Source: Planctomycetota bacterium
GTDB taxonomy: Bacteria; Planctomycetota; JAJSAM01; JAJVHW01
Assembly (NCBI GenBank): GCA_022072415.1
Contig: JAJVHW010000088.1
Coordinates: 1-44,105 of the forward strand
DNA: 44,105 bases
Reading direction: 5' to 3'
Shown here: positions 13,637 through 39,400 of the stretch, in pieces
How the letters are laid out: each line of letters starts with the position of its first letter
Position numbering within the stretch: the first letter of the stretch is position 1
The notes under the pieces: model-generated
Seen by the model: only the letters and a program-made list of their open reading frames with translations
Told to the model about the DNA's origin: nothing
Database searches by the model: none
Position numbers and translations under genes: made by a program

Positions 13637-13644
13637 GCGGTCGC

Positions 13645-18183: not shown

Positions 18184-18523
18184 CGATCCTCCTCGTGCAT
18201 CCAAGCACGCGCGTTCTCGCCGGGCGGACGGTCGTCCGCACGGGGACGACAGGCACGGCAAATCGGCGCCGCGTCCACGGTCGTTCGTCGCGCGCGCGCA
18301 CGGAGCGCGCACCGCCGGAGCGTACGCCCCGGTTCCGACGACGGGGCCGCGGTGCGCACGAAACCCCCGGTGCCAGGCGCCGGCGAGCCTCCGCCGTCGC
18401 GGGGCTCCAGGGCGGCATCGCCGCTGCGCAGAAGTCACTGGTTTCGTGCGCAGTCCGAGCGAACGTCCCCGGCGGGCCGCCCCGCCGCGCCCGGCGAGGC
18501 GGCTCCCGGAAGGAGCACTCCCG
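18184..18523. repeat. Divergent region with 13-bp inverted repeat beside the serine recombinase
   Basis: No gene is supported. A perfect 13-bp inverted repeat, TGCGCACGAAACC (18353-18365) and its complement (18440-18452), flanks a 74-bp spacer. It ends about 70 bp before the recombinase start. It could be a recombination site, a pair of operators for the recombinase, or a small invertible segment. G/C-rich alternating sequence fills 18280-18330. Confidence 0.5.
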
Positions 18524-19222: not shown

Positions 19223-19372
19223 ACAGCCGCACCTGACGCTCCCGCGCCGGGTGCAGCTCGTTCCCCTCACGCACCCCCCCAGTCAAAAAGCAGGGCGGCA
19301 CCCCTCCGCAGCCCCGGGGGGCCGGAACCGGCTCCGATCCGCGTGTCGCCCTGCATCGGTATGATCCTCTGA

Positions 19373-19930
19373 ATGAGCACCGAACAGGGCTCGACCGGGG
19401 GCGTGGAGCACCCGCCGTCGACCGCGACGTCGGCGGCGCAGCCGTTTGCACACCGGCCGATCCCGCGCCGGCTGCGCGTCAGGACCGCTTCCGCGCTTGA
19501 CCGCGTCCGCGTGAACGAACTCCTCCGGCGCATGGAGGCCGGGGAGGGAGAGCTCGACGCATTCTGGGCGGTGGTGACGAGCGAGGACCTCGGGTACTGC
19601 GGGTTCATCGGCAGGACCGACCGTCCCCGCGCCGTGTCGCTCCGGCGGAAGCTCGCGGCGCTGCTCGAGCGCACGCAGCCCGGCCTCGTCGCCGAGGCGC
19701 GAAACCTCGCGCTGGCAAGGCTGGCCCGGCTCTCCGACGAGGCGCTGCTCGCCGTCTCCGAAGTCGTCGGAGGGAGCGAGCCCGACGCGCGGATGGCGCG
19801 GGCGCGCCTTGATGCGGCGAAGACGATCCTCGCCTCGCTCGGCATCGCGGATCGCGGCGGCGGCGTCACCGTGGCGACCCAGGTCAACGTGTCATCGCAC
19901 GCTCCGGACCGGGTGCCCGATGGCGCGTGA
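19373..19930 (+). CDS. Putative terminase small subunit or packaging accessory (185 aa)
   Basis: The protein is helical after a disordered N-terminus. Its C-terminal pattern, ARMARARLDAAKTILASLGI then VTVATQVNVSSHA, is like that at the end of many phage small terminases. Its stop overlaps the start of the large terminase gene by 11 bp, the usual position for a small subunit. No HTH can be fixed by eye. The ATG at 19373 has only a weak site. If correct, the element has two different small-terminase candidates, this one and the P27 type at 15191-15685. Confidence 0.55.
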   Translation: MSTEQGSTGGVEHPPSTATSAAQPFAHRPIPRRLRVRTASALDRVRVNELLRRMEAGEGELDAFWAVVTSEDLGYCGFIGRTDRPRAVSLRRKLAALLERTQPGLVAEARNLALARLARLSDEALLAVSEVVGGSEPDARMARARLDAAKTILASLGIADRGGGVTVATQVNVSSHAPDRVPDGA

Positions 19931-21800
19931 CGGGACCGTGCGGAGCACGAGCGCGTCGGTCCGCAACCCCGAAGCGGAGGAGCCGGGCGACCGCGACTGG
20001 GACGCGCTCGGCGGCGATCTCGTGGACGATGAGGATTCGCTGGAAGGCGGAGCGCCGAAGGACGGAGCGCTGGACGATGGGGCGCACGCGGCCGGTCTCG
20101 CGGATCGGGAAGCGTTCGCCGCTGTCCGAAGGCTCCCGCGTGCGGGTCCGCACCTGACCGCGCCGACGGGCGCCGTCGCTGACGTCTCGCCGCGCGCGCC
20201 CTGGACCGACGATGCCGCGCGCGAGTGCGTGCGCCTCCTCGAAGCCCTCGTGCTCGACACGGGCGAGCGGTGGGGCGACCGCTCGCTCATGCCGTGGCAG
20301 CGCGAGGCGTTCGCTGCGACGCTGGGGCTCCCCGGCCACGCGGCCGGCGCGAAGAGCCAGCTCTGGGTCGAGGGGCCGACGGGGTGCGGGAAGGACCAGG
20401 TGATCGCCGCCGTGTGCCTGGCTGCGCTCCGCTTCGCGCCGGCGGGCTACGAGGTGGTCAACTACTCGGCCGACCTCGACCGCTGCCGCGACCTCGTGAA
20501 GACGGTGCGAGGGTTCATCCAGCGGACCGACGAGCGCGCCGAGGCGATGGGCATCCCGAGGTGGCTCGGCGAGGGGATCACGATCCTCCGGGACGAGATC
20601 CGCCGCGAGGCGGCGGACGAGCGGGGTCGGCTGGTCGTGCGCGCCGTCGCGCGGATCGAGTCGCTCGACGGCTACTCGGCGTCGGGCGCGCGCGCGGACC
20701 TCTTCATCGCCAACGAGGTCCAGAGCTGGCCGGAGCCGCACGGCGAGCGGGTCTGGGACGAAGCGCTCGCGCGCTACGACAAGCTCCCGCACGGGCGCTT
20801 CGCCGTCTTCTCGAACGCGCCGTTCTCGCCGGCCGGGGACTTCCGCCGGGACGAGCGCGAGCGGGCCGCAGCGTGCGCCGCGGACTCGCCCTGGCACTTC
20901 GTGCCGGTGTCGGTCGAGGACTGCCCGTGGATCGGGCCGGAGAAGCTCGAGCGAAAGCGGGCATCGCTCGCGCCGCACGTGTTCCGCAGGCTCTACCTTT
21001 GCCTCCCGACCGACGGCCGCGGCGAGCTCGTCTCTCCGGCGGTCTACGACCGCGCAGTTGATCCGGGGTATCGCCCGCCCTCCGCTCCCGCACCCGGCGA
21101 CCGCTGCTACCACGGGCTCGACGTCGGAGTTTCGCGGGACCACGCGGTCCACGCTATCGTGCGCCGATGCGCGGCCGACGGCAGGCTCTACCTCGACCGG
21201 ATACGCGTCTGGCTTCCGCCGCCGCGCGGGCAGATCGACCTCGACGGGATCGAGGCGGAGGTCGCCGCGTCCTTGGTTGAGCGACCGGGACGGCTCCTCG
21301 CCGATCCCTACCAGGCGGTCCAGATGTGTCAGGCGCTTGCGCGTGGCGGGAACGACGTGCGTCAGATCCCCTTCACGACGGAGTCGCTGACCCGGATGTG
21401 CGAGGCCGTCCGGAGCGCGTTCAACGACCGGCGCCTCGTTCTCTTCGCTGACGCGGGACTCGTGTCGGCCGGCGGCGGTGCCGCGGGCTCGGCGACGACG
21501 AGCCTCCGCCGACAGGTGCTCGAAGCGGAGGTGGCGGAGTCCGAGCGGGGCTCGCGGATACGAAGCCGCCGCGGGCGGGGCGGCCACGGCGACCAGCTCG
21601 CAGCCCTGGCCCTCGCGCTCCTTGGTGCAGCCGAGGACGGCGTGCAGTCATGCCCCGCCGTCGGGGCGCCGCCCGAGCGGGAGCCCGAGGCAGGGCACCC
21701 CGCCGATTCTCATCCGGGACGTCGCGGGTACTTCCGACCCCACGGCGGACGGCTGATCGGGGCGCGCGTCGAACGGCGGCGGATCATCCGCGGTCGTTAG
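19920..21800 (+). CDS. Phage terminase large subunit (626 aa)
   Basis: This is a DNA-packaging ATPase and nuclease. The Walker A-like EGPTGCGKDQ lies at 151-160 and the Walker B-like ADLFIANEVQSW near 259-270. The RNase H-fold nuclease has acidic residues in YHGLDVGVSRDH (D401), LLADPYQ (D462) and GGHGDQ (D558). The length is normal for this class. The N-terminal 90 residues are acidic and disordered. The ATG at 19920 overlaps the upstream gene. The stop shares the bases TTAG with the convergent AlbA-domain gene. No portal, protease or capsid gene follows, which is unusual for a prophage. Confidence 0.88.
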   Translation: MARDGTVRSTSASVRNPEAEEPGDRDWDALGGDLVDDEDSLEGGAPKDGALDDGAHAAGLADREAFAAVRRLPRAGPHLTAPTGAVADVSPRAPWTDDAARECVRLLEALVLDTGERWGDRSLMPWQREAFAATLGLPGHAAGAKSQLWVEGPTGCGKDQVIAAVCLAALRFAPAGYEVVNYSADLDRCRDLVKTVRGFIQRTDERAEAMGIPRWLGEGITILRDEIRREAADERGRLVVRAVARIESLDGYSASGARADLFIANEVQSWPEPHGERVWDEALARYDKLPHGRFAVFSNAPFSPAGDFRRDERERAAACAADSPWHFVPVSVEDCPWIGPEKLERKRASLAPHVFRRLYLCLPTDGRGELVSPAVYDRAVDPGYRPPSAPAPGDRCYHGLDVGVSRDHAVHAIVRRCAADGRLYLDRIRVWLPPPRGQIDLDGIEAEVAASLVERPGRLLADPYQAVQMCQALARGGNDVRQIPFTTESLTRMCEAVRSAFNDRRLVLFADAGLVSAGGGAAGSATTSLRRQVLEAEVAESERGSRIRSRRGRGGHGDQLAALALALLGAAEDGVQSCPAVGAPPEREPEAGHPADSHPGRRGYFRPHGGRLIGARVERRRIIRGR

Positions 21801-22954
21801 TCACGGAGCGTGTGCCACCGGCCGCCGGACGCGTACGAAGCCGATTCGCGGATGCCGACCGCGTTCCAGAGGGAATCGAACGCCGGACGAAGGACTCGCC
21901 GGAGATCCGCGCCGTAGTCGGTGACGAGCACGTCGGGGCAGAGGAGGTGGTCCCGGTCGATCGGGTGGTCCGCGCGACGGTGCCGCTCGAACGAGGTGCC
22001 GGGGATCTGGAGCCCCCGACAGCGAAGGACCGAGAGGAGAATCACGGCGGGCCCCTCCGCCGAGAGCTTCCGCAGTGCGCCCAAGTACTCGCCGCTTCGG
22101 GCGAGGACCTGGTCCTCGATCTCGGTGAGCAGGATGTTCCCGTCGAGACAGAGCCGATCGGTTGCCGACTCGAACGCGCCGGATCGCAGCACCTGAAGGT
22201 AGGCGCCGGGCCCGCGGGACGTGATGAGGAAGCCGTCGAAGTTCCAGCGGCGCTCGACGGCATCCGAACTGAGCGGAAGGACCTCACGGTCGATCGAGGC
22301 GGCCCGGCCGATCGGAAACGGAAGGCCGACCCGCTCTCCGAACGGAACCACGTGGAGGACGACGACCGCGCCGGGCTCAAGCGCCGACGGCGCCTCGCCG
22401 CCGAGTATCCGCGAGATGCGCTCGGCGCGGAACGCCCGCACGCGGTCCGACGCGCCAGCGCCGTCGGCGAAGGCGCGCCGGAGGTCATCGACGTCGAGCT
22501 GGAAGCAGCCGGCCGAGCCACGGCCGAAGAACCGCGACCAGCCGCCGAGGGTCACCATGTGGGGCGCGCAGAAGCTGCGCGGAACGCGGAGGACCAGGGC
22601 GACCCGCCCCTCGCCGACCCCGATCACAGCCGACTGCACACCGTGGACCCGCGGACGGATGCCGTCCCGGATTGAGTTCTCGACCCGGAGCTTCAAGTCG
22701 TCCGGGCTCCCCTCCTCGAAGCCGCAGACATCCTCTGGGACGCCCTCCCTGGCGGCGATGCCGTAGATCAGGTGGCCGCCGGCGGCGTTCGCGAGCGAGC
22801 TCACGTCCTTCAGGAGCTCGCGCTTCGCCTCGTCGTTGCGCCCCGGTGCGTCGCGCTTGTACTCGACGGTGCGGCACTCCGCCGCGGCGGCGGCGACGAG
22901 CGCGCGGAGGTCCGCCGCTCCGAGTTCTTCGATCGCCTTTCCTTCGAACGCCAT
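21797..22954 (-). CDS. AlbA_2/Schlafen-type domain protein (385 aa)
   Basis: Residues about 20-150 match the AlbA_2 (Schlafen) domain: ECRTVEYKRDAPGR, LLKDVSSLANAAGGHLIYGIA and the later VALVLRVPRSFCAPHMV. The C-terminal 230 residues are beta-rich and not recognised. Proteins with this domain are frequent in defence islands and mobile elements, where they are thought to bind nucleic acid or act as nucleases. The ATG at 22954 has GGAGG about 7 nt upstream. It is convergent with the terminase gene. A second protein with the same domain lies at 23822, with the domain at its other end. Confidence 0.75.
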   Translation of the reverse strand: MAFEGKAIEELGAADLRALVAAAAAECRTVEYKRDAPGRNDEAKRELLKDVSSLANAAGGHLIYGIAAREGVPEDVCGFEEGSPDDLKLRVENSIRDGIRPRVHGVQSAVIGVGEGRVALVLRVPRSFCAPHMVTLGGWSRFFGRGSAGCFQLDVDDLRRAFADGAGASDRVRAFRAERISRILGGEAPSALEPGAVVVLHVVPFGERVGLPFPIGRAASIDREVLPLSSDAVERRWNFDGFLITSRGPGAYLQVLRSGAFESATDRLCLDGNILLTEIEDQVLARSGEYLGALRKLSAEGPAVILLSVLRCRGLQIPGTSFERHRRADHPIDRDHLLCPDVLVTDYGADLRRVLRPAFDSLWNAVGIRESASYASGGRWHTLRD

Positions 22955-23123
22955 CGGGGCCTCCTTCGGGACGAGTCTATCGGCCTGCCGGACACCGGAA
23001 GGATCCGCGGAGTGCAAGGAGGATCTGCGGGCTGGCGGGCGTCCGCGGGCGCGGCGAGCGGCGCTGGAACACACTGGCTATCGCACATGCCGGAGCGAAC
23101 GTCCGGGTTAGGAGGTGCTCACG

Positions 23124-23651
23124 ATGAAGCACAAGAAGAAGACGAAGAAGGCGGGCGCCGTCGGCGCGCCAGTCCGGACGAAGACCCGGGCGACAGTCCG
23201 AGCGACGACCCGCGCGGCCATCCGCGCGGCGAGCCGAACGGCGTCGGGGGTAGCCGCAGAGGCGACGAGCAAGACCGCCCCCTGTCGGCGCGGTACGCGC
23301 GATCCGGTCGAGCCGCCTCGCCGGACCCGCGCCCCGGCGCGGCGCGACGACGCGGGAGTCCCGCCGCCGGGGTCGGTCCTCACGCGGCGATACAAGGGCC
23401 GGGACCTCCTCGTCACGGTCACGGCGGAGGGGTTCCGATTGGACGGCGAGTCCTTCCGGCCGCTGACCGCGGTCGCTCGCCGCGTGACCGGCTACGCGGC
23501 GATCTCGGGCCCGCACTTCTTCCGCCTGAAGGCCCAGCGCCGCGAGCAGGTCGCGGGTTCCGCGCCCTCTCGATCCGGCCCGCGGCAGGCGCCGCCGCTT
23601 CCGCCCGCCACGCCGGGAGACGAAGCCGAAACGAGCACCGCGGCGCCCTGA
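23124..23651 (+). CDS. DUF2924-family protein (175 aa)
   Basis: The C-terminal half has the DUF2924 pattern: PGSVLTRRYKGRDLLVTVTA, then EGFRLDGESF, LTAVARRVTGY and GPHFFRLK. The N-terminal 65 residues are a basic Thr/Arg/Ala-rich tail that likely contacts DNA. DUF2924 proteins are usually found near serine recombinases and phage genes; their function is not established. The ATG at 23124 has AGGAGGTG 6 nt upstream. A strong hairpin ends the gene 27 bp after the stop. Confidence 0.75.
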   Translation: MKHKKKTKKAGAVGAPVRTKTRATVRATTRAAIRAASRTASGVAAEATSKTAPCRRGTRDPVEPPRRTRAPARRDDAGVPPPGSVLTRRYKGRDLLVTVTAEGFRLDGESFRPLTAVARRVTGYAAISGPHFFRLKAQRREQVAGSAPSRSGPRQAPPLPPATPGDEAETSTAAP

Positions 23652-23821: not shown

Positions 23822-25240
23822 ATGCAGGCCCAACTGACGTTTCGCGACGGGACGGTCCCGCTCCCCGTGATCCTCGGAGACCTTGAGGCGCAGCTTCCCG
23901 GGATCGCGGCGGTCCGGCTCCGCGCGGCCCTCGTGCGACCGGCGGCGTCGCGGGATGCCGACCCGTCGTGGATCGCCACCCACTGGGTGATGTCGGCCAG
24001 CCGTCCCGGGGAGAACCCCGTGAGGCAACCGGACACCCTGCTTCCTGAGCTTCGCCTGATCGAGCGCGAGGTCCGGCCCGCGGATGCGGTCGCGGTCCTC
24101 GACCGGCTTCTTCGGACCGGGGAGGGACCCGACTTCTCCGCGCTGCCGCTCGCCGCCTCGTCGAACGACCGCTACCAGATGAATCTCCACGGGAGCACCG
24201 CGCGACGGGGCGCATGGAGACAGTGGGGCGTCTCGCTCGCGCGCGGCGAGCAGACCGCCACGATCCCGACCATCCAGCAGATCGCCTATGGTTCGCCGCC
24301 GATCCTCTACCCGGCCGGGGCGGCCTGCCGCTGGCTCGGCATCCGGCGCCGGGATGCGGATCTGATCCGCATCCCCTCCGCGCGGGTCGAGATCCCCGAG
24401 ACGCGCTGCCGGATCGTCGGCATGCGCAGGATCGACGAGGCCAGGGTCGAGATCGACGTCGAGAGGAGACCGGGATACGACGTCGCCGTCGAGGCGCACT
24501 TCGCGGTTGTGACCGACGCCGGCGAGATGCCGCAGTTCAGGGCGGTCTCGGGCTCGGGCGCCATCCCCTTCGACTGCCCGGCTGAGGCGCCTGAGCTGAC
24601 GGCAGCCCTGATCTCCGCAGCGGACGAGGTCCTTGACTGCCACCGCGAGTCGCCGGCCGAGTTCCGCGGAGTCAGCCGAGTCCTCGACGCGCTCCCCGGC
24701 GAGGAGGACGACTTGGCCCTTCTTTCGCGGCTCATCGCGGGCGGCGAGGGGGAGGGGACCGAGTTCAAGCCAGGCGTGAAGTGCGACGCCGGCAGCCTGA
24801 AGAGGGAGGAGGTGTTCGCGACCGTCTGCGCATTCGCAAACCGCAGCGGGGGCTACGTCCTTCTCGGGGTCTCCAACGACGGAGTGCCGGATGGGATCGA
24901 GGCCGCGGCGTCCAGCGGGAAGGGCCGGGATCTCGGCCGCGCCCTGGAGAGCTACCGCCTCCGGCTCTGCGAGCTCGTCCGGAGCGTCGTCGAACCGGAG
25001 CCCGCAGTGGACGCGCGGGTCGTCCAGATCGCCGGGCGGCACGTGCTGATGCTCAAGGTAGCGGAGCACCCGGACAAGCCCTGCCATCTCCGCGACGAAC
25101 GGCGCATCGTGGTCCGCACCGGCGCTTCGAACATGGCGCCGAGCAGGGAGTGGATCAGGGAGTTCTCCGGCCGAGGGGACGACGACGATGCGGACGGGTC
25201 GGACGGGCTCATCGGCGGCGGCACCGCCGACTTCAGATAG
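23822..25240 (+). CDS. Protein with C-terminal AlbA_2/Schlafen-type domain (472 aa)
   Basis: Residues about 310-430 carry an AlbA_2-like domain: GEGEGTEFKPGVKCDAG, VFATVCAFANRSGGYVLLGV, then HVLMLKVAEHPDKPC and RIVVRTGASN. The first 300 residues are unrecognised, with an SNDRYQMNLHGSTAR segment near 120. The last 20 residues are acidic and disordered. The ATG at 23822 is the only good start, although no strong ribosome site is visible. It differs from the AlbA protein at 21797 by having the domain at the C-terminal end. A nucleic-acid-binding or defence role is inferred from the domain only. Confidence 0.7.
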   Translation: MQAQLTFRDGTVPLPVILGDLEAQLPGIAAVRLRAALVRPAASRDADPSWIATHWVMSASRPGENPVRQPDTLLPELRLIEREVRPADAVAVLDRLLRTGEGPDFSALPLAASSNDRYQMNLHGSTARRGAWRQWGVSLARGEQTATIPTIQQIAYGSPPILYPAGAACRWLGIRRRDADLIRIPSARVEIPETRCRIVGMRRIDEARVEIDVERRPGYDVAVEAHFAVVTDAGEMPQFRAVSGSGAIPFDCPAEAPELTAALISAADEVLDCHRESPAEFRGVSRVLDALPGEEDDLALLSRLIAGGEGEGTEFKPGVKCDAGSLKREEVFATVCAFANRSGGYVLLGVSNDGVPDGIEAAASSGKGRDLGRALESYRLRLCELVRSVVEPEPAVDARVVQIAGRHVLMLKVAEHPDKPCHLRDERRIVVRTGASNMAPSREWIREFSGRGDDDDADGSDGLIGGGTADFR

Positions 25241-25282
25241 TCCACCGCCGCACGCCTGCAGAGGACCGAAGGCCGCCGCGCG

Positions 25283-25510
25283 TCAGTTGTCGGTCGGGTT
25301 CACGGCACGAGGGGCGCGGCGGACCGAAGCCGGCGCGGCCCGTGTGACGCTCGGCGTTGTGACGTCCGGCGTTGCCTTGGCCTGAGACCCGGCGCGGAGC
25401 TTCTCCCCCCAGGCCCGGAGCAGAAGGTCCGTGTTGCGGTCGCGGCGCCGCTCCTGCTCCTCGTCCGGCGTCTCCCGTCGACCCCGCCGCACTCCCGAAT
25501 CACCGGCCAT
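25283..25510 (-). CDS. Small basic protein, paralogue A (75 aa)
   Basis: No family is recognised. The ATG at 25510 has GGAGGGAGG about 5 nt upstream. The core EEQERRRDRNTDLLLRAWGEKL closely parallels the core of the next small gene (25937-26095), sharing R-D-R-x-T-x-LLL-x-AW-x-x-KL. The C-terminal tail is Thr/Pro/Ala-rich and basic. The shared helix argues that both are real. It may be a small DNA- or protein-binding factor of the element. Confidence 0.55.
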   Translation of the reverse strand: MAGDSGVRRGRRETPDEEQERRRDRNTDLLLRAWGEKLRAGSQAKATPDVTTPSVTRAAPASVRRAPRAVNPTDN

Positions 25511-25936
25511 CGTCGCCTCCCTCCGTGCGCGACGCACGCGCACCGCTTCGCCTGGGCCGCGCCGGTCGCCGTTCGCGGTTGCTGCTCCGCGGCGCCTGAC
25601 TGCGCCGCTCGTCTGCGCAGCCCCTGCGAAAGCCAAGGCTACGCCGCTGCACCGACCGTCCCTGCGTACCGAATCCCTCGGTCGGCGCCGGGGACTCTCG
25701 CGCCGGGCCTGACGCTGGTCTCGGTGTCCGTCGGGTCGCCGGCTCCTGGTCGCGGGCGTCGCACACTCGATTCATCGTCCCGCAGGGCTCGAACCTGAGC
25801 CCCTTCGGGTCCTGCCCTCACGTCCAGGGAGAACGTCGCTCCCCCCGCCTCCTCCCCCTCTCCTCGGGGGCCCCCGGGATGTGCCCGGAGCCCCCGCCTC
25901 CCGCCGGCCGGAGTCGCCGGCCTGGCGCAGATCGAG
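25511..25936. terminator. Gene-free region; hairpin terminator at 25866-25895
   Basis: No gene is supported in these 426 bp. GGGGGC (25866-25871) pairs with GCCCCC (25890-25895), with an inner CGGG/CCCG. This lies about 40 bp downstream of the leftward small gene B and likely terminates it. The remainder is leader sequence of small gene A. Confidence 0.5.
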
Positions 25937-26095
25937 CTACCGCCTGTCGGCGGCGCCCCCCTCCTTCTGGTCGGCGAGCAGCTTCGCCCGCCAGGCGACG
26001 AGCAGGAGGTGCGTCGCGCGGTCGCGCGCCGCCTCGAGCTCCTCGTCGCAGCGGTCCTCCGCCGCGGGCTCGTCGATGTCGTAGTCGGTCGTCAT
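25937..26095 (-). CDS. Small protein, paralogue B (52 aa)
   Basis: The ATG at 26095 has AGAGGAGGAAC about 7 nt upstream, a good site for so short a gene. The N-terminus is acidic (MTTDYDIDEPAAEDRCDEEL). The helix EAARDRATHLLLVAWRAKLL matches the core of paralogue A. No known family. The pair probably arose by duplication within the element. Confidence 0.55.
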   Translation of the reverse strand: MTTDYDIDEPAAEDRCDEELEAARDRATHLLLVAWRAKLLADQKEGGAADRR

Positions 26096-26166
26096 GGCCA
26101 AGTTCCTCCTCTGGCACTTCAGACGAGGACCCCGCGCAGGCATGGAACGTCACGCCACAAGGCACG

Positions 26167-26186
26167 GGGCCCTCCTTTCGGGGCCC
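26167..26186 (-). terminator. Hairpin upstream of small gene B
   Basis: GGGCCC (26167-26172) pairs with GGGCCC (26181-26186) around an 8-nt loop. It lies between the candidate small ORF ending at 26199 and gene B, so it may terminate the former or structure the leader of the latter. Confidence 0.35.
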
Positions 26187-26198
26187 AGCCGCCGCGTC

Positions 26199-26462
26199 CT
26201 ACACGCGGGCGGCGCGGCCGTGGTCGTGGTGATGGTCGTCGCCGCAGCCGTCGGATGCCGCAGATGCGTGGCAGGCGCGGCGGACTGCGATGCGGGAAGG
26301 CGCCCGGCGGACTTCGTCCGGTCCGAGCGCTCGGGCGTCGGCGTGCTCCCCTCGGCCAGCAAACGTCGAGAGCCCCGGAGCGGCGGCCTCGGCGGAGATG
26401 CCTCGGCCTGCCGCCGCGGGGTCGCGGTCGTCCTTCGGTTCGCTGGGGGTCGGAGTGGTCAC
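26199..26462 (-). CDS. Possible small His/Asp-tailed protein (87 aa)
   Basis: A GTG-started frame fills most of the 437-bp gap between the His-rich sigma-like gene and small gene B. It ends with CGDDHHHDHGRAARV, a likely metal-binding tail like those of its neighbours. The codon third positions are G/C-rich but not strikingly so, and the ribosome site is weak. An opposite-strand frame here with a run of valines is the complement of this tail and is thought to be a shadow. I hold this as possible only. Confidence 0.3.
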   Translation of the reverse strand: MTTPTPSEPKDDRDPAAAGRGISAEAAAPGLSTFAGRGEHADARALGPDEVRRAPSRIAVRRACHASAASDGCGDDHHHDHGRAARV

Positions 26463-26532
26463 GTTGCGCTCGTTCGATGGTCCGATCAGTGTTGCGGTTG
26501 CGTGGGCGACGGGTCGCCCGTGCGGTGTCAGG

Positions 26533-27570
26533 TCAGGCGGTCCCGCCGCCGTCGTATCCGTGCCGCGGGTGCGGCACGTGCCGCCCACCGCTCTGCCCGG
26601 CGTGCAGGTCGTGCGCCTCCTCCGACCCGTGCGCCTGCTGCGAGTCGTCTGCGTGCCGCGGCTCGTGCGCCGAGTGCCCGCCGTGCCCGTGGTGCCCGTG
26701 GTGCCCGCCGCACGCGGCGCCTCCGCACCGGGCGGCGTGCCGCACCGGTTCGCCGCAGGCCCCCTCAGCGACGGCGACCCGTCCGGAGAGGAAGTGGCGC
26801 GCATCGCGAAGCACCGCGGCCTCGCCGTGGCCGCTCCGCTCGCGCTCGCCGATCTCCCGGAGCAGCGCCTCGGTGAACGCCTGGCGCGCCGCCCGGAGCG
26901 CGTGCAGGCCCTCGGCCGGCGTCGCGAAGACCGGCGGCTCGGGGTCGTGCGGGGCAAGGCCGCAGCTCTGGAAGCGGTAGTAGTGGACGATCACGTCGTG
27001 GTGGTCCCGGCGGAGCGACCGGAGCGCGACGGGCACGAGGAGGCGCACCGCGTGCACCACGTCCATCGCGTCGTCGAACTCGATCAGCGCCGAGACGGAG
27101 TCCCCGCCGAACACCCGCGCGGACTCGCGCAGCACGTCGATGCCGACCCCCGTCTGGTAGCGGCGGCGGTGGCGGACCTCGCGGCGGTGGGCGTGGTCCA
27201 GGGCGATCCGCATCTGGCGCACGATCGCATCGGCGGACTCGCCCTCCTTCACGCTGACCCAGACCGCGGCGAGCGCCTCGGACGCGAGCTCCTCGCTCTC
27301 GTGCTCCGCCACTCCGTGCGCGGCGTGGAGGTACTCGCGGCATCCGAGGATGACGCGCGACAGGGCCGCCTCGTCGTGGAAGCGAGCCTGGCACAGGTCG
27401 GCGTGCTCGACGTGGAGCTCGGTGTGGAGGTCGGCGCTGGGAACGACGTGACGGCCGGCGTGACGCTCGGCGTGCGTGTGGGAGTCGTCGCGGCCGGTGG
27501 TGCCGGCGCCGGTGCGGCCCGGGGCGCGCGGTCCGGCGTGGCGTGCGGTGTCCTCGTGGTGGTCCTTCAT
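26533..27570 (-). CDS. Divergent sigma-like protein with His/Cys-rich C-terminal tail (345 aa)
   Basis: Residues 55-125 resemble region 2 of ECF sigma factors (FHDEAALSRVILGCREYLHA, then HESEELASEALAAVWVSV and a basic R-R-x-V-R-H-R-R-R). Residues about 165-240 resemble region 4 (LRSLRRDHHDVIVHYYRFQS). Both ends are His-rich. The last 75 residues contain GGAACGGHHGHHGHGGHSAH and many further His, a probable metal-binding module. ECF factors with metal-sensing Cys-rich tails (CorE type) are known, and a CusBA efflux pair lies 3 kb away; a link is inference. The ATG at 27570 has GAGGAG about 6 nt upstream. No anti-sigma gene is adjacent. Confidence 0.5.
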   Translation of the reverse strand: MKDHHEDTARHAGPRAPGRTGAGTTGRDDSHTHAERHAGRHVVPSADLHTELHVEHADLCQARFHDEAALSRVILGCREYLHAAHGVAEHESEELASEALAAVWVSVKEGESADAIVRQMRIALDHAHRREVRHRRRYQTGVGIDVLRESARVFGGDSVSALIEFDDAMDVVHAVRLLVPVALRSLRRDHHDVIVHYYRFQSCGLAPHDPEPPVFATPAEGLHALRAARQAFTEALLREIGERERSGHGEAAVLRDARHFLSGRVAVAEGACGEPVRHAARCGGAACGGHHGHHGHGGHSAHEPRHADDSQQAHGSEEAHDLHAGQSGGRHVPHPRHGYDGGGTA

Positions 27571-27776
27571 TGCGGGCTCCTCTCGGTTTCGGCGCCTGGT
27601 CCCTCTTCGGGGCCGCGGGCATCCGGTACTCCCTAGGGACGCAACCGCCCCCGGGCGGGACATTGCAGTCTCCCGCTGCCCGCGCGCCCTGCTGCAACGA
27701 GTCGCGCCCGCGGCGCGGACCGGAGTCCGATGCCGCGGGCGCTTGCGAGAGAGGAGGAGACGGCCGGGCCGGCGGA

Positions 27777-28550
27777 CTACGCGTCCGCGCTGGCGCCGCC
27801 GCCTGAGCGCTGGCGCCGCAGGAGTTCCAGGACGGTGCCTGCGCGGACGAGGCGCATGCCGCGCACGAAGGCGAGCACGGAGTCGAGCACGTCGCGGTCG
27901 CCTCCGGCGCGGACGCGCCGGAGGATCCCTGCCTCGAGCGCCTCCGAGAAGCGGCCGCGCGCGCGCTGGAGCGCCTTCCGGCCGGCTTCGTCCCTTGGCC
28001 GGCCTGGAGCGCCGCCTCCGGCGTCCGCGGCCGAGCCGGGCTCCGAGGCCGTGGGAGGCTCGCCGTCCTTCCCGGGCGAGATCCCGTAGGCGTCCGCGAT
28101 GAGCGAGCGGTCGGCCGCGGACAGCGACAGGAGCGCGGCGGTCATCTCCGACTCCGCGACCTCGATGACGCGGCGCGCGTACTCGCGCTCGATCAGGTCA
28201 TCGATGCTGTTCCCCCTCGCCGTCCAGTCGAGCTCGGGAGGAAGCGGCACGGCGCGCGAGCGCCGGCGGCGGAGCTGCGCCACCTGCCGCTCGACCGCGC
28301 GCCGCATCTCCAGCCGGATCTCCCGCGGGTCGGCGCCGTCCTTGATCATGTGGAACGTCTCGGAGATGGCGTACGAGACCACCTCCTCGACCTCCTGCGG
28401 CGGAACCCATCCCAAGCGCCGCCTCCGGACGAACTCCTCGACCGCGAGCCGGATGCGCTGGTGCGCGTAGTGGTCGTCGAACATGAGGAGGCGGAGGTCC
28501 TCGTCCGCCACATGGGGCCCGCGGTCGTCGTCGCCGGAATGGTCGTGCAT
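27777..28550 (-). CDS. Divergent sigma-like protein (257 aa)
   Basis: It begins MHDHSGDDDRGPHVADEDLR, with an N-terminal His/Asp stretch as in its neighbour. Residues 25-105 have the region-2-like pattern (VPPQEVEEVVSYAISETFHM, then EMRRAVERQVAQLRRRRSRA), and 130-200 a region-4-like pattern (MTAALLSLSAADRSLIADAY, ARGRFSEALEAGILRRV). The -10 and -35 recognition helices are too diverged to assign. The ATG at 28550 has AGGAGGAG about 7 nt upstream. It is separated from its neighbours by about 200 bp with hairpins, so it is probably an independent transcript. A small hairpin at 27645-27658 lies downstream. Confidence 0.5.
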   Translation of the reverse strand: MHDHSGDDDRGPHVADEDLRLLMFDDHYAHQRIRLAVEEFVRRRRLGWVPPQEVEEVVSYAISETFHMIKDGADPREIRLEMRRAVERQVAQLRRRRSRAVPLPPELDWTARGNSIDDLIEREYARRVIEVAESEMTAALLSLSAADRSLIADAYGISPGKDGEPPTASEPGSAADAGGGAPGRPRDEAGRKALQRARGRFSEALEAGILRRVRAGGDRDVLDSVLAFVRGMRLVRAGTVLELLRRQRSGGGASADA

Positions 28551-28699
28551 CGCTCGCTCCTCCTGGCGAGGCACCCCGTCGGGGTCGGAGTTGGCCCCGC
28601 CGCGCGCCCCTCCACCAATCTGGGATGCGTCGGAGAGGGGCCGGGACAGGGCGCCCGCGGAATCTCCGCTGCGGACGGTCGCCCCTTCACGGCGACGCT

Positions 28700-28719
28700 C
28701 CAGACCTGCTGTGGTCTGG
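28700..28719 (-). terminator. Hairpin downstream of sigma-like gene
   Basis: CCAGACC (28700-28706) pairs perfectly with GGTCTGG (28713-28719) around a 6-nt loop, 45 bp beyond the stop at 28765. No T run follows. Confidence 0.4.
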
Positions 28720-28764
28720 CGCCGGGCACGACCAGACGTCCGCCCGCTGACGGTGCGCCTTGGG

Positions 28765-29469
28765 TCACGCATCGTGGGCGGAGTCCGTGCCGCCGACGTG
28801 CCCGTCGAACGTACCGAGCGCGAACCGCACGACCTCGGGGTCGGCCTCTCCCGCGGCGACCAAGCGCTGGAGATTTTCGACGACCCCCTTCCGGAACGCC
28901 CTCACTGCGCGGCGGCGGGCGCGGCTCTGCGACGCGTCCGTCCTCGTGCGCCGCGTCCCCGGGCGCGGGAGCTTCCGCGCAGGCAGCGGCAGGTCGTGGT
29001 GCCGGCGGAGCAGCTCGTAGTCGCCGTCCCCGAGCCCCTTCATCGCAGAGGCGACCGCGACCGACATCGCGGCGTGGACGGCGAAGGCCGTCTCCCAGGC
29101 GGCGAGGATGTTCGGCGGATCCTCCGCGGTCTCCGGCTCTTCGTGCTTCCCGCTGCTCTGGCTCTTGCGCGCCCTGTCCGAGGCCCGCCACGCACGCTTG
29201 GCGTGGCGCTCAAGGGCCTTCGCGTAGCTCTTCGCGGGGGCGGAGCAGCGGCCCTCTCGAAGCTCGTCTCCGACGCGGACGATCGCGTCGGAGACGACGT
29301 CCTCCACGTCGTCGCGCGGGACCCGCCCGCGCCTGCGGCGCGCGAGGTGCGTGACCGAGAGCGCGCGCAGCTCGCGGTGGCACTCGGGATCGCCGAGCAC
29401 CGCGCGGCGGACGAACTCGTCGTCCGCGAGCGTGAAGCGGGGGCTTCGATGGCCGTCACGGAGGTCCAT
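28765..29469 (-). CDS. Divergent sigma-like protein (234 aa)
   Basis: This is the third gene of the series. Residues 15-95 resemble sigma region 2 (DDEFVRRAVLGDPECHREL, VPRDDVEDVVSDAIVRVGDE, then a basic KAWRASDRARKS-like stretch). Residues 125-205 resemble region 4 with an extra basic loop (GLGDGDYELLRRHHDLPL, RARRRAVRAFRKGVVENLQR). The ATG at 29469 has AAGGAG about 5 nt upstream. It shares overall order and length with 27777-28550, which suggests duplication and divergence. It is the last gene before the divergent EEP gene and perhaps the last gene of the mobile element. Confidence 0.5.
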   Translation of the reverse strand: MDLRDGHRSPRFTLADDEFVRRAVLGDPECHRELRALSVTHLARRRRGRVPRDDVEDVVSDAIVRVGDELREGRCSAPAKSYAKALERHAKRAWRASDRARKSQSSGKHEEPETAEDPPNILAAWETAFAVHAAMSVAVASAMKGLGDGDYELLRRHHDLPLPARKLPRPGTRRTRTDASQSRARRRAVRAFRKGVVENLQRLVAAGEADPEVVRFALGTFDGHVGGTDSAHDA

Positions 29470-29779
29470 GGGGGCTCCTTCCGAGGTCGGCGGGATGTCC
29501 GGGCAGGGGCAGCCGCCGATCCCTCTGATCAAGTGGGACTGCGCGGGAGGTCGCGCGGACAGCAGCTGCGCCTGAGTTTCGGCGCGCGCGTCAGGTCGTT
29601 CCGCAATCCGACCCTCGTCCGGCGATGCGCGGCAGACATGAAACGCCGCAGCGCAGGGCGGAGTTGCGCCGCTGCGGATTCCCGCCGCGCGAGACTCCAG
29701 ACCGACTTGATCGCGGCTCCGCGGCGCGGTTACGATCCCCCTCGGTCCGCAGGACGAGGAACCGCAGGAGGAAGGACCC
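29470..29779. promoter_or_regulatory. Divergent gene-free region with stem-loop
   Basis: No gene is supported. It separates the leftward sigma-like gene from the rightward EEP gene, so it should hold both promoters; none could be fixed. An 8-bp stem CCGCAGCG (29646-29653) with CGCTGCGG (29670-29677) is visible, and its loop includes GAGTTGCG, also present in the direct repeats at 6782-6814. It is a candidate for the right end of the mobile element, but no copy of the tRNA 3' end was found here. Confidence 0.35.
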
Positions 29780-30598
29780 ATGGCGAAGGCGTTCACGCTT
29801 GCATCCTGGAACGTCGAGCACTTCAAGGACGACCCGACGCGGGTCGCCCGCGTCGTCTCGTTCCTCGCGGACCAGACGCCCGACGTCTTCGCGCTCTACG
29901 AGGTCGAGGGGGCGGCCGTCTTCTCGGCGCTCACCAAGGAGATGCCCGGCTACAGCTTCCACATCACCGAGGGCCCGCAGATCCAGGAGATCCTCGTCGG
30001 CGTCAGGCGGCCCCTGACCGCCTTCTTCACACAGAAGACGGAGTTCCGGAGCGGGCAGACGACGCTGCGACCGGGCGCTCTCCTCTCGCTCGTGATCGAC
30101 GGCGAGACCTACTCGATCCTCTTCCTCCACACGAAGAGCGGACCCGACCCGAAGGGGCTCGGGATCCGCGACGACCAGTTCGGCCGCGCGCTCGACTTCA
30201 AGAAGACCCTCGACAAGCTCGCGCGGAAGGGCGGGAAAGCCGCCGCGAACTACCTCTTCCTCGGCGACCTGAACACGATGGGGATGAAGTACCCCTACGG
30301 GCGATCGATCGACGCGGCGACCGAGCTGCGGAAGCTCGACAGCGAGGCGAAGCGAGTCGGGATGAGGCGCCTCTCGAAGGACGAGCCGGCCACATGGTGG
30401 AACGGACCGGGCGGGAAGTTCGCGCCGTCGGACTTGGACCACGTCGTCGCCTCATCCCACCTCTCCATGAAGAGCCAGGGCGGCGCCGACATCTCCGTGC
30501 TCGGCTGGCCGAAGGAGAAGACCCCGGCTGCTCAAGGGGCGTGGATCGAGACGTACAGCGACCACGGCCTCCTCAGGCTCCAGGTCGAGCGTTCTTAG
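29780..30598 (+). CDS. Endonuclease/exonuclease/phosphatase (EEP) family protein (272 aa)
   Basis: The EEP metal-site motifs occur in order: SWNVEHF (N11), ALYEVEG (E41), LFLHTKSG, FLGDLNTMG, SDLDHVVAS and YSDHGLL. Members cleave phosphodiesters in DNA, RNA or lipids; the substrate cannot be told from sequence. There is no signal peptide, so it is cytoplasmic. The ATG at 29780 has AGGAGGAAGG a few nt upstream. The stop shares TTAG with the stop of the convergent CusA gene. It is a single-gene unit and may be either chromosomal or the last cargo gene of the element. Confidence 0.85.
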   Translation: MAKAFTLASWNVEHFKDDPTRVARVVSFLADQTPDVFALYEVEGAAVFSALTKEMPGYSFHITEGPQIQEILVGVRRPLTAFFTQKTEFRSGQTTLRPGALLSLVIDGETYSILFLHTKSGPDPKGLGIRDDQFGRALDFKKTLDKLARKGGKAAANYLFLGDLNTMGMKYPYGRSIDAATELRKLDSEAKRVGMRRLSKDEPATWWNGPGGKFAPSDLDHVVASSHLSMKSQGGADISVLGWPKEKTPAAQGAWIETYSDHGLLRLQVERS

Positions 30599-33500
30599 CC
30601 GCTGGCGCCCGCCGCGGAAGCGCTCCGCATGCGCCGCCATCTTGCGAGCTCCAGCCGGTAGAAGAGCGCGGGCAGGAAGACGTCGATCACCTCGTCGGCG
30701 ACGAGGATGCCGCCGAGGACGGGCGCGGCCATCGGCCGGAGGATCTCCGAGCCCGGCCCCTCGACGAACAGCATCGGCGCGACGCCGAGGATCGTCGTCG
30801 CCTCGGTCAGGAGCTTCGGGCGCATGCGCCGGACCGCGCCGTCGAGCACCGCCGCGCGGAGAGCCTCGGGAGACGCGACCCTTCCGAGCCCTCCCGCGGC
30901 GGAGACGGCCTGCCGGAGATAGACCAGCATCACGATCCCCGTCTGGGTCGCCATCCCGAAGCAGGCGATGAAGCCGACCCACGATGCGACCGAGAACGGC
31001 TCGCCGAGGATCGCCTGGCAGAACACCCCGCCCGCGAGCGCCCCGGGGACGGCGAGCAGCACGAGCAGCGCATGGCCGAGGTCGCGGTAGGTCATCCAGA
31101 GGATCGCGAGCATCGAGACGAGCACCGCCGGGATCATCAGCGAGAGCGTCCGCCGCGAGCGGACCTCGTGCTCGTACTGGCCGGTCCACTCGAGCGTGAC
31201 GCCGCGCGGAAGGGAGACGCGGGTCCCGACGACCGCTTTCGCGTCCTCGACGAATGAGACGATGTCCCGGCCCTCCACGCCGAGTTGCACCAAGCCGCGG
31301 AGCGTGCCGTTCTCGCTCCGGATCATCGCAGGGCCCTCGGCGAGCTCGACCCGCGCCGCGTCGCCGACCTCCGGATGATGGCGCGGCACCCACTCCGCCT
31401 CGGCCGCATCCGGCGCCGCCGTCGGAGCCGCCGCCGACCTCGGCTTCGCAGCGTGCGCCATCCCGGCCATGGCGCCGGGCATCGCCGAGCCCGCGCCGCC
31501 CATGAGGGGTGACGCATCGGCGGCTTCGGCGCTGCGCGGCGGGAGCAGCACGGCGCGTGCGTCATCGGCATCCTCCCGCGCGGCTCGGGCGTACCGCACC
31601 CGGACGGGGAGCCGGGCGCCAGAGAACCGCCCGTCCCCCGGGAGTTCACCGGCGATCGTGCCGTCGAACGCCGCGCTCACAGCCGCGAGCAGGTCGGCGG
31701 CGGGGACCAGCGCACCGCCGGGGAACTCCGCCGGAGTCACGCGGAGGTAGGACTTCCCTGACGCCTGCTCTGCCACGACATCGACCGCGCCGGGCACGGC
31801 GCGGAGGATGACGGCGACCTCTGCGGTCACGCGATCAACCGTCTCGACGTCCGGCCCGAGGACGCGCACGCCGACCGCCGTGCGCACGCCGGTCGTGAGC
31901 ATGTCGATCCGGTTGATGATCGGCTTGGTCCAGATGTTGGCCCACCCGGGCATCCGGACGGCGGCGTCGAGTTCCGCGAGGAGGTCGTCTCGGGACTTCC
32001 GCGACAGGGTCGGCGCGAAGCCGCCGGCCGCGGAGGCGACCGCAGCGCGCACGCGGCTGTCCTCCGGATCCAGTCCGCCGGCCGCGGCGAGGGACTCGAT
32101 CCAGGAGAGTCCGGCGCGGGAGGGCTCAAGGCGTCCGTGGGACGCGTCCGCGCGCATCCGCGCGTCGAAGAGGCGCCGCGCCTCGGAAGCGTCGCCGCCG
32201 CTCACCGCGGCGGCTGCGTCGGAAAGCCCCGCCGCCTCCAACTCGCCAACGAGCCGCGCGGATCCGCGAGCGGCCTCGCCGTCGCCGAGGTGCCGCCGCG
32301 GCCAGTCCGCGGCAGGACGCAGTCCGACGTGCGTCTCGATCATCTCGATCGGACTCGGATCGGTCGCCGTGTCCGCGCGCCCGGCCTTCCCGACGACGGT
32401 CGTCACCTCGGGGAAGGACCGGAGCAGCTCGTTCCGTGCGCGGAGATCGTCGCCGACTTGGGCCAGGGACGCGCGCGGGGTCGTCACCGGCATGTCGAGG
32501 ATCGCCCCCTCGTCGAGCGCCGGCATGAACTCCCGCCCGAGCCGGGAGGAGACGACCCATCCCGCCGCGAGGATCAGCGTGAAGAGGAGGAGGACGACTC
32601 GCGTCCGCCCGATCAGCCATGAGAGGACCGGGCGGTAGACCGCGGCGGCCGTGCGCACGAGCCATGAGTCCTCCTCGGCCCGCACCCGCCCGCGGAGGAG
32701 GCGCGGGAGGAGTGCTGGGAGGAGCGTCACCGTGACCACGCCGACCGCGAGGAGCACCAGCGTCTTCGTCCACGCGAGCGGGTGGAACATCCGCCCCTCG
32801 ACGCCGCCGAGCGCGAACACGGGGAGGAAGGAGACGACCATCACGAGGACGGCGAAGAAGACAGGACGCCCGACCTCCTGGGCGGGCCTGAGCAGCAGAT
32901 CCCGCGTGTCGCCCCGGACCGGCCCCTCCCCGAACCTCGCCCGGAGCGCGTGGAGCCCGTTGTCCGCGAGCACGATCGCCTGATCCGCGAGCACGCCGAT
33001 CGCGATGGCGATCCCCGCGAGCGACATCAGGTTCGCCTCGATCCCGAGCGGCCTCATCGCAAGGAAGGAGAGGAGGATCGCGAGCGGGAGCGAGATGCAG
33101 ACGAGGACCGACGCGCCGGCGTGGCGCATCACGAGGAAGATCACCGCGACGGCGGCCATGAGCTCGACCGCGAGCGCGCGGCCGACCGTCCCCACAGCGG
33201 CGCGAACGAGCTCGCTCCTGTCGTAGAACGGCGCGATGCGCACACCGCCCGGGAGCTGGGCCGACACCTCCGCGGCCCGTGCGCGGAGCGCGGCGCAGAC
33301 CTCCCGCGGGTTTCCGCCGCGGGCCATCACCGCAACGCCGCCGACCGCCTCGCTCCCGTCCCGCTCAAGGATCGACCGGCGCGGCGCGGGCCCGACCGAG
33401 ACCGTGGCAAGGTCGCCGACGCGGATCGGCGACCCGCGCCGCTCGGCGACGACGGCGCGAAGGATCGCGTCGCGGGCGCGGCCCGCGTCGAGCCCGCCGC

Positions 33501-35932: not shown

Positions 35933-36424
35933 ATGATGAAGCGCAGGTTGATGCTGTTCGCGCTTGCGGCGGGGGCCGCAGCGCTCGTGGCGCCGGGGAT
36001 CTCCTCCGCAGCGGACAAGCGCGTCGCGGAGCTCCAGGCCATCGCGGAGACCGGCGGCCGCTCGCGTCGGCTGGCGGCGATTGACGAGCTCGTCCGGAAG
36101 GACTCGAGCGAATCGCGCGGCGCGCTCGAAGCGCTCGCCGCGAGCCGCGACGCGGAGCTCGCGTCGCTGGCGCTCCTCGCGATCGGCCGCGCGGACTACT
36201 CGGGGGCGCGCACGAAGCTCGCCGACGCCGCCGGAGACGCGAAGCGGAGCGACGCCGCCCGCGCGGCGGCGCTGACGGCGTGGCTCCGGGCCGAGGAGAA
36301 GGACGGGAAGTCGTGGGACGCCGTCAACGGGACCGCCGAGTCGAAGGCGGGGAGCAACGACCTGCTGAAGGACGTCCTCTCTGCGGTCAAGAAGGCGCGG
36401 TTCGACGCGAAGGGCGGGCAGTAG
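35933..36424 (+). CDS. Small secreted helical (HEAT-like) protein (163 aa)
   Basis: The signal peptide MMKRRLMLFALAAGAAALVA ends near ISSAADK. The mature part is short helical repeats rich in Ala, Arg and Glu (RRLAAIDELVRKDSSE, LEALAASRDAELASLALLA), HEAT-like. The ATG at 35933 has GAGGGAG upstream; the adjacent ATG is equally possible. Its stop is 2 bp before the Rhs start, so the two are co-transcribed. It may help export, fold or anchor the Rhs protein. No enzymatic motif was seen. Confidence 0.7.
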   Translation: MMKRRLMLFALAAGAAALVAPGISSAADKRVAELQAIAETGGRSRRLAAIDELVRKDSSESRGALEALAASRDAELASLALLAIGRADYSGARTKLADAAGDAKRSDAARAAALTAWLRAEEKDGKSWDAVNGTAESKAGSNDLLKDVLSAVKKARFDAKGGQ

Positions 36425-36426
36425 CC

Positions 36427-39400
36427 ATGCGCGCCCTCCTCCCGCGGCTCTTCGCGTTCGCGGTCCTTCCGTTCCTCGCGGCGGCGGCCTTCGCCGCGGA
36501 CACGGACGGCGACGGCCTCACCGACGACTTCGAGACGGCGCTCGGCTCGGACCCGAACGACAGCGACACCGACGACGACGGCTGGAGCGACTTCGTCGAG
36601 GCGACGGAGAAGGGCACGGACGTCACGCTGGCCGACATGGACGGCGATCTCACGAACGACCCGACCGACTCGAATCCCTTCGATCCGGGGTCCGGCCTGC
36701 TCGACGGCGGAAGCACGATCACGAAGACCGGCGCGCCGACCAGCGCCGGGTACGCCGCCGCGGGGACCTCGCCCATGGCGGGTCGCGGCGCCGTCCTGAC
36801 CTCGGGAGCCGTGCGCCGGAGCTACGGCTTCGGTGCGGCGCCTGGGCGGCGGCCGAGCCTCCTCGGGCAGATGGACTGCTGCGGGGACGCTCCCGCTCCC
36901 GAGGCGGTGTCGCTCCTCGACTTCGAGCTCCGGCTCGAGTACAGCTCCCAGAGCGCCTTCGACGGGCGGGTCGGGAAGGGCTGGTTCGCGCCGCTCCTCG
37001 ACACCGCCTACACGGTGGACGGCTCGGGCAACTTCACGGTGCTCCGCGAGGACGGCGTCCAGGTGACCTACACCAACTCGAGCGGGATCTTCACCTCGCC
37101 CGCCGGGATGCGCGACGAGCTGACCCTGTCCGCCGGCGTCTACACGCGGACGACGCCCGAGGGGATGTCCTGGACGTACTCGGGCGGGCTGCTCGATGAG
37201 GTCTCCGACCGCTTCGGAAACTCGATCGCGCTCTCCCACGGCTCGGGGGGCGAGACCACGTCGGTGACCGACACCCGCGGGAACTCCCACACGTTCAGTT
37301 ACTACTCGGGGACCGGACGGCTCTCCACGATGACGGTCCAGGGCGGCGCGGGCTGGAGCTTCACCTACAACACGAAGGGCCAACTCCTCGGCGTGACCGG
37401 ACCCGCGACGACGCTCTTCCCGGCCGGGATCACGCGGGAGTTCCGCTACGTCAACGGGAGCTCCTCCTCGGCGCTCAACGGGAACCTCCTGATCGAGATC
37501 GACGGCCGCGGCAACTCGGCGCTCCGCTACGCCTACGACTCCTCGGACCGCGTGACGAAGCAGTACATCGACTCGTGGTCGAACTACGTGGCGTTCGACT
37601 ACAGCGACGTCGCCAACCGCAAGGTGACGGTGACCGACCGCGCGGGGAACGAGAAGGTCTACGAGTGGGCGGCGACGACGCTCGCCATCGCAAGCCTCGT
37701 CGAGAAGACCAACCGCGGCGTGCGTTCGGGCGAAGGCGACTACACGACGACGTGGGGGAGCAACACGGCGGGCTACATCACGTCGGTGACGCTGCCTCGG
37801 GGGAACGGCGCCAAGTGGACGCTCAACTCGGCACAGCTCCCGACCGAGGAGCGGCGGAAGGAGGTCATGTCCGCCGCGGACGGCTCGGGCGACATCGTCC
37901 ACACGTGGACGCTCGACTCCGCGAAGTACTACGCGCCGAGCTCCTACACGGACCCCCGCGGAAACACGACGAGCTTCACGCTGAACTCGAAGGGCCAGCC
38001 GACCACGATCACGTTCCCGACGCTGACCCACGTCACCCCGAACCAGACGGTCACCCACGGCTACACCTACAACACGGACGGCACGGTGGCGTCGTTCACC
38101 GACGGCGAGGGGAAGGTCACCTCGTGGAGCTACTACTCGACCGGTACCAAGACGGGGCTCCTTGAGTCCGTCGTCCGGGACGACGGCGGTCTCGACCTGA
38201 CGACGACGTGGGATTACACCTCCTGGGGCGGCCCCGCGTCGGTGACCGACCCGCGGGGGAACACGACGACCCTGACGGCGGAGCGCTACGGGAACGTGAC
38301 CGAGATCGCGGCGCCGTCCGCCCTGGGCTACGTGACGAAGTTCGAGTACACGGCGAACCTCGGCGTCACCAAGGTGAGCCGGAAGAACATCGACTACGAC
38401 GGGACGTGGCTCACGACGCCGGCCTGGTGGGAGACGTCCTACGCCCGCCACCCGAACAACAAGGTCGCGAGCATGCAGGAGATGGTGACCGCGTCGGCCT
38501 CGCGGAGCACCTCGTTCAGCTTCGACGCGAACGACAACGTGATCGCGCAGGAGCGCGGCCCGGTCCGGACCGAGTGGACCTACGACGAGCGGGACTTGGT
38601 CTACACGCAGGTGAGGGACCCCGGCACGGGGCACATCCAGGCGACGGACACGTTCCACTACGACGGCAACCGGAACCTCACCTCCCATGTGAACCCGCGC
38701 TCGAAGACGGCGACCAAGACGTGGGACCTCTTCGACCGCATGACCGCGGCTGTGACGCCGATCGGCCACTACCGGACGACCGACTACGACAAGGCCGGTA
38801 ACGTCACCGACGCCAAGGCGTACGCGGAGGCGGGGGCGACCGACCTGCTGCTCGAGCACACGAAGCACACCTACGACGCGATGAACCGCCGCTGGAAGGA
38901 GGAGGGGCTCCTCCAGGGGACGACCGACCAGTGGCTTGCGCGGACGTTCACCCTGGACAAGCGCGGGCTGATGACGGCCCACAGCGACCGCCGCGGCTAC
39001 GACACGCTGCACGAGTGGGACGGCGCGGGGCGCCTGGTCGAGGAGGAGGACGCGGCGGGGAACATCCGCGCGTACACGCTCGACGCGAACGGGAACGTGA
39101 CCGCGCTCTCGGAGACGGAGAAGCTCCACGGGAGTTCGACCACCGAGACCTACGTGACCGAGTTCGAGCACGACGCCCTGAACCGCCTGAAGAAGCGCTC
39201 GGTCGTCGACCGCACGAACAGCTCGAACAAGCTGGTCACGGAGTACAAACTGGACGCGCTCGGCTTCCTGCGAAGGACGATCGACCCCAGGGGCTACGCG
39301 ACGACGCGGAGCCGGGACGGCCTCGGCCGCGTGACCGAGGAAAGCCGCGAGGTCTCGGCGAGCGGGTCGATGGTGACCGGGACGGCGTGGGACGACCACG

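Follow-up and report, generated by a model that had tools for sequence, protein, structure and literature searches.

Three tandem sigma-like genes in a Planctomycetota contig form a strongly diverged family derived from ECF sigma factors

Introduction

Three consecutive genes on a contig of a Planctomycetota bacterium (JAJVHW010000088.1; the whole stretch of DNA analysed, 44,105 nucleotides, is hereafter called the window) raise the question of whether their products are sigma factors and, if they descend from sigma factors, whether they can still read promoters. The original prediction, made from the DNA letters, regarded them as strongly diverged ECF sigma factors lying in one element, which might form a regulatory cascade or a hijacking device for the host RNA polymerase. 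Here, we describe the genes, their relationship to ECF sigma factors, their predicted folds, and the residues that they have kept and lost, and we weigh the possible functions.

Results

Gene organization and paralogy

The ORFs of the trio lie on the minus strand and fill exactly positions 26533-29469, in agreement with the predicted series of three leftward genes. In transcription order, they encode the sigma-like protein P0003 (28765..29469, 234 aa) and its sigma-like paralogues P0002 (27777..28550, 257 aa) and P0001 (26533..27570, 345 aa), where the lengths are taken from the most likely ATG starts. The GC content at third codon positions is 0.915 for P0003, 0.930 for P0002, and 0.942 for P0001. 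The same measure ranges over 0.88-0.94 in six neighbouring genes and is lower (0.64-0.83) in the five overlapping ORFs tested, which run antisense or out of frame. The trio consists of real genes with a coding signature like that of the other tested genes of the contig. A purine-rich ribosome site of its own precedes each start codon (GGAAGGAG, AGGAGGAG, and AGAGGAG), as had been noted before. The shared length that was also predicted applies to a common core of approximately 230 aa but not to the complete proteins. P0001 has His-rich N- and C-terminal ends; 40 of its 345 residues (11.6%) are His, 15 of which are within residues 263-345, and this tail also holds three of its six Cys residues.

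P0001 and P0002 share 30% identity (BLASTP, E 1e-11), and a tblastn search of the whole genome with P0002 finds P0003 at E 0.0028. Direct BLASTP comparisons of P0003 with P0002 and with P0001 gave no significant match. All three proteins have a common C-terminal extension despite identities of 22-35%. As judged from these comparisons, the trio members are paralogues, with P0003 being the more distant one.

Relationship to ECF sigma factors

None of the three proteins has a significant family in Pfam or PHROGs, and none reaches a curated cut-off in Pfam, NCBIfam, or PHROGs. The best curated match of P0003 is NCBIfam sigma70-ECF (E 8.1e-4; 19 bits, where the cut-off is 42.9), and P0003 is the only member with this below-cut-off match. 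A weak match of P0001 to Ribosomal_S21 (E 0.026), also below the cut-off, was discarded. The host genome contains 23 Sigma70_r2 matches, none of which lies within the trio.

A joint profile of the three proteins, designated A1, was searched in six frames against 392 genomes from the phylum and nine from the order. Outside the trio, A1 matched 18 places in the phylum genomes at E <= 0.01; in the order genomes, it matched an ECF of the host genome itself at E 3.5e-6, and two further places at E 0.08 and 0.79. All 19 out-of-family matches that were checked are ECF sigma factors, with Sigma70_r2 present in 19 and region 4 in 17, and each of these proteins matches NCBIfam sigma70-ECF.

For profile-profile comparison, we used 17 ECF proteins that had been picked by PF04542 and not by A1 (16 of 25 loci were kept and one locus, L008, was added, whereas RpoD-like and mis-framed loci were left out). 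HHalign aligned A1 to this set with a probability of 86, a score of 44.3, and an E value of 4.9e-6, spanning both sigma2 and sigma4, compared with maxima of 17.9 in 150 column permutations and 18.7 for the reversed profile. P0003 alone scored 29.5 via sigma2 (60 permutations reached 18.5 at most), and the pair of P0001 and P0002 scored 31.2 via sigma4 (null 21.3), while P0001 alone and P0002 alone were not significant. A sigma2 domain is present, as the ECF sigma2 is matched above the permutation controls both by P0003 on its own and by the family profile. The fold matches to region 2 of sigmaE and CnrH (see below) point to it as well.

When a plain HMM was made from the 17 ECFs, the three proteins taken singly never beat their shuffles. 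An HMM built from partly A1-selected ECFs gave 26.7 bits for P0003 and 16.9 bits for P0001, each above all 2000 shuffles, and -3.2 bits for P0002, but as A1 had selected the set, we did not rely on these scores. In a sequence search of the PDB, A1 had CnrH as its top match at E 0.16, followed by designed helical proteins, and P0003 alone found nothing relevant. At the family level, these comparisons show the trio to be a tandemly duplicated, strongly diverged family from ECF-type sigma-70 factors. The profile of mutually diverged tandem paralogues thus exposes a family that single-sequence annotation overlooks.

No relative of the trio was found in the collections searched, which comprised the order and phylum genomes, genome and viral contigs, phages, and plasmids. 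Scans of the viral contigs yielded 129 stretches for A1, 35 for P0003, four for P0001, and 12 for P0002, and scans of the genome contigs yielded 260 for A1 and 503 for P0003; none of them was confirmed. Queries of P0002 and P0003 found no match in phages by tblastn, and in plasmids they found three records with best E values of 5 to 9, which we took as chance. In the 392 phylum genomes, P0002 matched itself and a 67-aa segment of a long, unrelated protein (E 9.5e-4); we likewise attributed the latter to chance. PADLOC gave no match for the trio. The nine order genomes each hold 17-92 Sigma70_r2 matches, and therefore offer ample raw material for such a family.

Predicted folds

AlphaFold models of P0002 and P0003 were built from the trio alone, using an alignment without any sigma sequence. 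Their confidence is middling, with mean pLDDT values of 68.9 for P0002 and 67.5 for P0003; by block, the sigma2 part ranges from 67 to 89 in P0002 and from 54 to 80 in P0003. In the VIA-align comparison, the list for P0002 opens with 37 rows and that for P0003 with 27 rows that are exclusively sigma factors or sigma chains from polymerase complexes (RPSB, RPSD, and RPSH in the structure titles denote sigma B, D, and H). The best match of the P0002 model is CnrH (Z 8.2, rmsd 2.9, 84 residues), a nickel/cobalt-response sigma factor of an efflux locus, and that of the P0003 model is region 2 of sigmaE (Z 8.6, rmsd 2.8, 91 residues), whereas the best unrelated rows have Z values of 6.0 and 5.3, respectively. 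Such Z values would by themselves be weak for helical proteins, and it is the uniformity of the lists that carries the argument.

Foldseek gave no match at E <= 0.001 for either model. Among the best 50 of 104 matches in a viral fold library, ranks 1, 4, 7, 10, 11, and 12 are annotated as sigma factors or sigma-like subunits, none of them significant. Folds unrelated to sigma factors, which would have refuted the original prediction, were not obtained from the structure comparisons suggested along with it; the predicted folds mainly resemble sigma factors. Both models have a long loop where the helices of the sigma4 HTH are expected.

Residues kept and lost

The alignment with the 17 ECFs indicates which parts of a sigma factor the trio has retained. 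The acidic, DAED-type motif of sigma2.2 is kept as DVED in P0003, EVEE in P0002, and ESEE in P0001. According to an excerpt of PMC8999054, ECF sigma factors bind beta' by these acidic residues, which matter for core binding in EcfP. In the last sigma4 helix, the Ala-Arg pair (Ala in 17 and Arg in 15 of the 17 ECFs) is also kept in the trio. The C-terminal extension of all three proteins is without counterpart in the ECF set.

Several other conserved positions have changed. The sigma2.2 Gln, present in 17/17 ECFs, is replaced by Ser in all three proteins, and the sigma2.3 Trp, also invariant (17/17), by Tyr, Glu, and Gln. An Asn found in 14 of the 17 ECFs is His, Arg, and His in the trio, and in the sigma4 HTH, Leu, Glu, and Glu, situated inside Pro-rich stretches, stand in for an Ala shared by 15/17 ECFs. 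The HTH core of sigma4 is lost in all three proteins, where Pro-rich or variable loops take its place and the flanking helices still align; in P0002, the replacement is a Pro/Gly-rich loop, and in P0003, sigma4 is only a remnant. Because the residues for promoter opening and reading and the HTH core are lost, an ordinary sigma function of the trio is doubtful. The sigma2.2 Gln belongs to the core-binding region, and its loss could also weaken core binding.

The description as strongly diverged ECF sigma factors therefore stands at the family level, where HHalign with its permutations, the identity of the out-of-family matches, and the two predicted folds bear it out, but it does not extend to the residues and the HTH core with which such factors open and read promoters. 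On this alignment, the trio consists of degenerate sigmas, derived from ECFs and yet outside them by the missing HTH and invariant residues.

Intergenic regions and candidate partners

The genes of the trio are separated by gaps of 214 and 206 bp, in which hairpins had been noticed. Stems do exist, such as a perfect 11-bp inverted repeat without a U tract in the P0002-P0001 gap (approximately 27704..27742, minus strand), but the gaps as a whole fold only slightly better than shuffles: 9/200 and 17/200 shuffles folded at least as well, and the P0002-P0001 gap has a z of -1.45. Neither a sigma-70 promoter nor a U-tailed terminator was found in 25200-30000, and Rfam gave no match at E <= 1 in 24500-31000. 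The three upstream regions, when compared, have no clear common motif; one of the three pairs was marginal (3/500 shuffles) under one of two scorings. The upstream regions lend the suggested regulatory cascade no support.

As the original prediction had stated, no adjacent anti-sigma gene is present among the neighbours scanned, as far as Pfam recognises one. Downstream of the trio, two small ORFs lie on the same strand, one of 51 aa (25937..26092), which has the frame and coding-like GC of a longer ORF at 25937-26143, and its paralogue of 75 aa (25283..25510). They are identical at 17 of 34 residues (E 4e-7). Neither has a family match, Pfam included in the case of the 75-aa ORF. We regard their products as candidate partners of the trio.

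Genomic neighbourhood

To the left of the trio, there are phage-like genes for an integrase, a small and a large terminase, a replication-initiation protein, and a ParB-methylase. This set occupies 10235-21800 and comprises a tyrosine integrase, a ParB-like/DNA methyltransferase, the small terminase (15191-15685, minus strand), the replication initiation protein, the large terminase (plus strand), and a resolvase; the two terminase genes are apart from each other and on opposite strands. A tRNA-Pro is located at 6617-6694, and its 3' end has no repeat of at least 13 bp in the window. A 13-mer at 21656 was rejected as an attachment repeat, as it matches the 5' side of the tRNA-Pro and is at about chance level by estimate. 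Because no attachment repeat was found, we cannot claim that the trio is placed on an element; phage-like genes are indeed nearby, yet no end of the supposed single element could be mapped, and the flanking genes in the nine order genomes did not help to locate one.

To the right, an opposing endonuclease/exonuclease/phosphatase-family gene (29780-30598, plus strand) is followed by CusA- and CusB-like efflux genes. The former has a second copy in the same genome (G000:C16:34144-34962, minus strand) with 91% protein identity; at the DNA level, the match (89%) is confined to the gene without its flanks (29777-30598), and the other eight order genomes yielded no copy. Elsewhere in the window, a SIR2-domain protein that matches many PADLOC SIR2 defence models is encoded right after the tRNA-Pro (6964-8730, plus strand), and Schlafen AlbA_2 domains occur in two closely spaced convergent-side genes (21797-23074, minus strand, and 23822-25240, plus strand). 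An ARAGORN call of an 87-base tRNA-Gly at 23531-23617 (minus strand) overlaps ORFs and is probably a false positive. An RHS-repeat protein of 1760 aa with a TSP3 repeat is encoded at 36280-41562 (plus strand).

Discussion

Possible function of the trio

The acidic motif has been kept, whereas the Gln, the Trp, and the HTH core have been lost, and sigma-derived regulators without ordinary -10/-35 reading are therefore the most likely explanation of the trio. In such a mechanism, the sigma2-like helical domain of each protein would grip beta' by its acidic motif, and the last sigma4 helix would have been kept and supplemented by the common C-terminal extension. Without the invariant sigma2.2 Gln and sigma2.3 Trp and the HTH core, the proteins would probably not read -10 and -35 elements in the ordinary manner. 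Their binding to the core enzyme (beta') or to an anti-sigma factor may instead have a regulatory effect, either on the polymerase of the host or within the sigma/anti-sigma network. We assign a probability of roughly 0.55 to the trio being ECF-sigma-derived regulators that act in this way.

The retained homology in sigma2 and sigma4 and the acidic core-binding motif would also suit working ECF sigmas with an unusual promoter preference, each serving a small regulon or the next gene in a cascade. Separate ribosome sites and gaps long enough (206-214 bp) to hold promoters fit this explanation, and some ECFs act without an anti-sigma factor, as stated in part of PMC8999054. However, the loss of the invariant sigma2.3 Trp and the HTH core in all three proteins, the long loop in the models at the position of the HTH helices, and the lack of a common upstream motif make it unlikely. 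A sigma-like fold minus its DNA-reading parts is also what a decoy would need, that is, a mimic that takes the position of a genuine ECF on an anti-sigma factor and thereby releases a host sigma. The sigma-like domain of PhyR is a precedent for such a decoy (PMC8999054, in an excerpt), and the 23 Sigma70_r2 matches of the host genome are consistent with it. This explanation is more unlikely still, as the trio has no receiver domain, no anti-sigma gene was recognised near it, and the acidic motif that binds polymerase has been kept. The weak similarity of single members to sigma factors, the lost functional residues, and the failure to find relatives elsewhere that could reveal purifying selection would also be expected of decaying ECF paralogues, in which no function depends on the sigma fold. 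Against decay speak three intact ORFs with a strong coding signature and ribosome sites, and an extension common to all three at only 22-35% identity, and we consider it improbable.

If the regulators acting without ordinary promoter reading do bind polymerase, they would be natural sigma-derived effectors and would allow a clean assessment of the sigma parts that are sufficient for binding the core enzyme. Going further, the trio may represent a new family of RNA-polymerase effectors, of which it would be the first member to be seen. Sigma2 clamps without promoter reading, arranged in tandem beside phage-like genes, would occupy or retarget the host polymerase, and the two small paralogues downstream might be their partners. 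This extension is tentative, and we hold it to be possible but on balance doubtful. The regulatory cascade and the hijacking device of the original prediction are inferences.

Comparison with known systems

Mimicry of the PhyR type, as outlined in part of PMC8999054, would resemble the action of the trio if its degenerate sigma fold binds an anti-sigma factor. Unlike PhyR, the trio has no receiver domain in Pfam or NCBIfam, and no NepR-like or other anti-sigma gene was found nearby. Phage-encoded sigma factors are likewise sigma-like genes near phage-type genes and might redirect host transcription, but those described in PMC9429907 are recognised sigma homologues, whereas the trio has no relative in the phage collections searched.

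P0001 is similar to the CorE-like metal-sensing ECFs, as far as an excerpt of PMC8999054 describes them, in having a C-terminal tail rich in metal ligands (15 His and three Cys in residues 263-345) and in its location near CusA/CusB-like efflux genes. P0001 differs from the CorE-like proteins of that excerpt by the absence of a Cys-rich domain and of a CXC motif in the linker; furthermore, only one member of the trio has the tail, and an opposing gene lies between the trio and the efflux genes. More speculatively, the His-rich ends of P0001 could add metal binding. We treat the link to metals, which consists of the His residues of P0001, the CnrH match, and the efflux genes, as a lead only.

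A further close comparison is with the ECF (group 4) sigma-70 factors, such as E. coli sigmaE and CnrH. The trio differs from them in falling below the curated cut-offs, in the loss of the invariant Gln and Trp and the HTH core of sigma4, and in the added C-terminal extension, but it shares with them the two-domain layout of sigma2 and sigma4, the acidic motif of sigma2.2, and the predicted fold.
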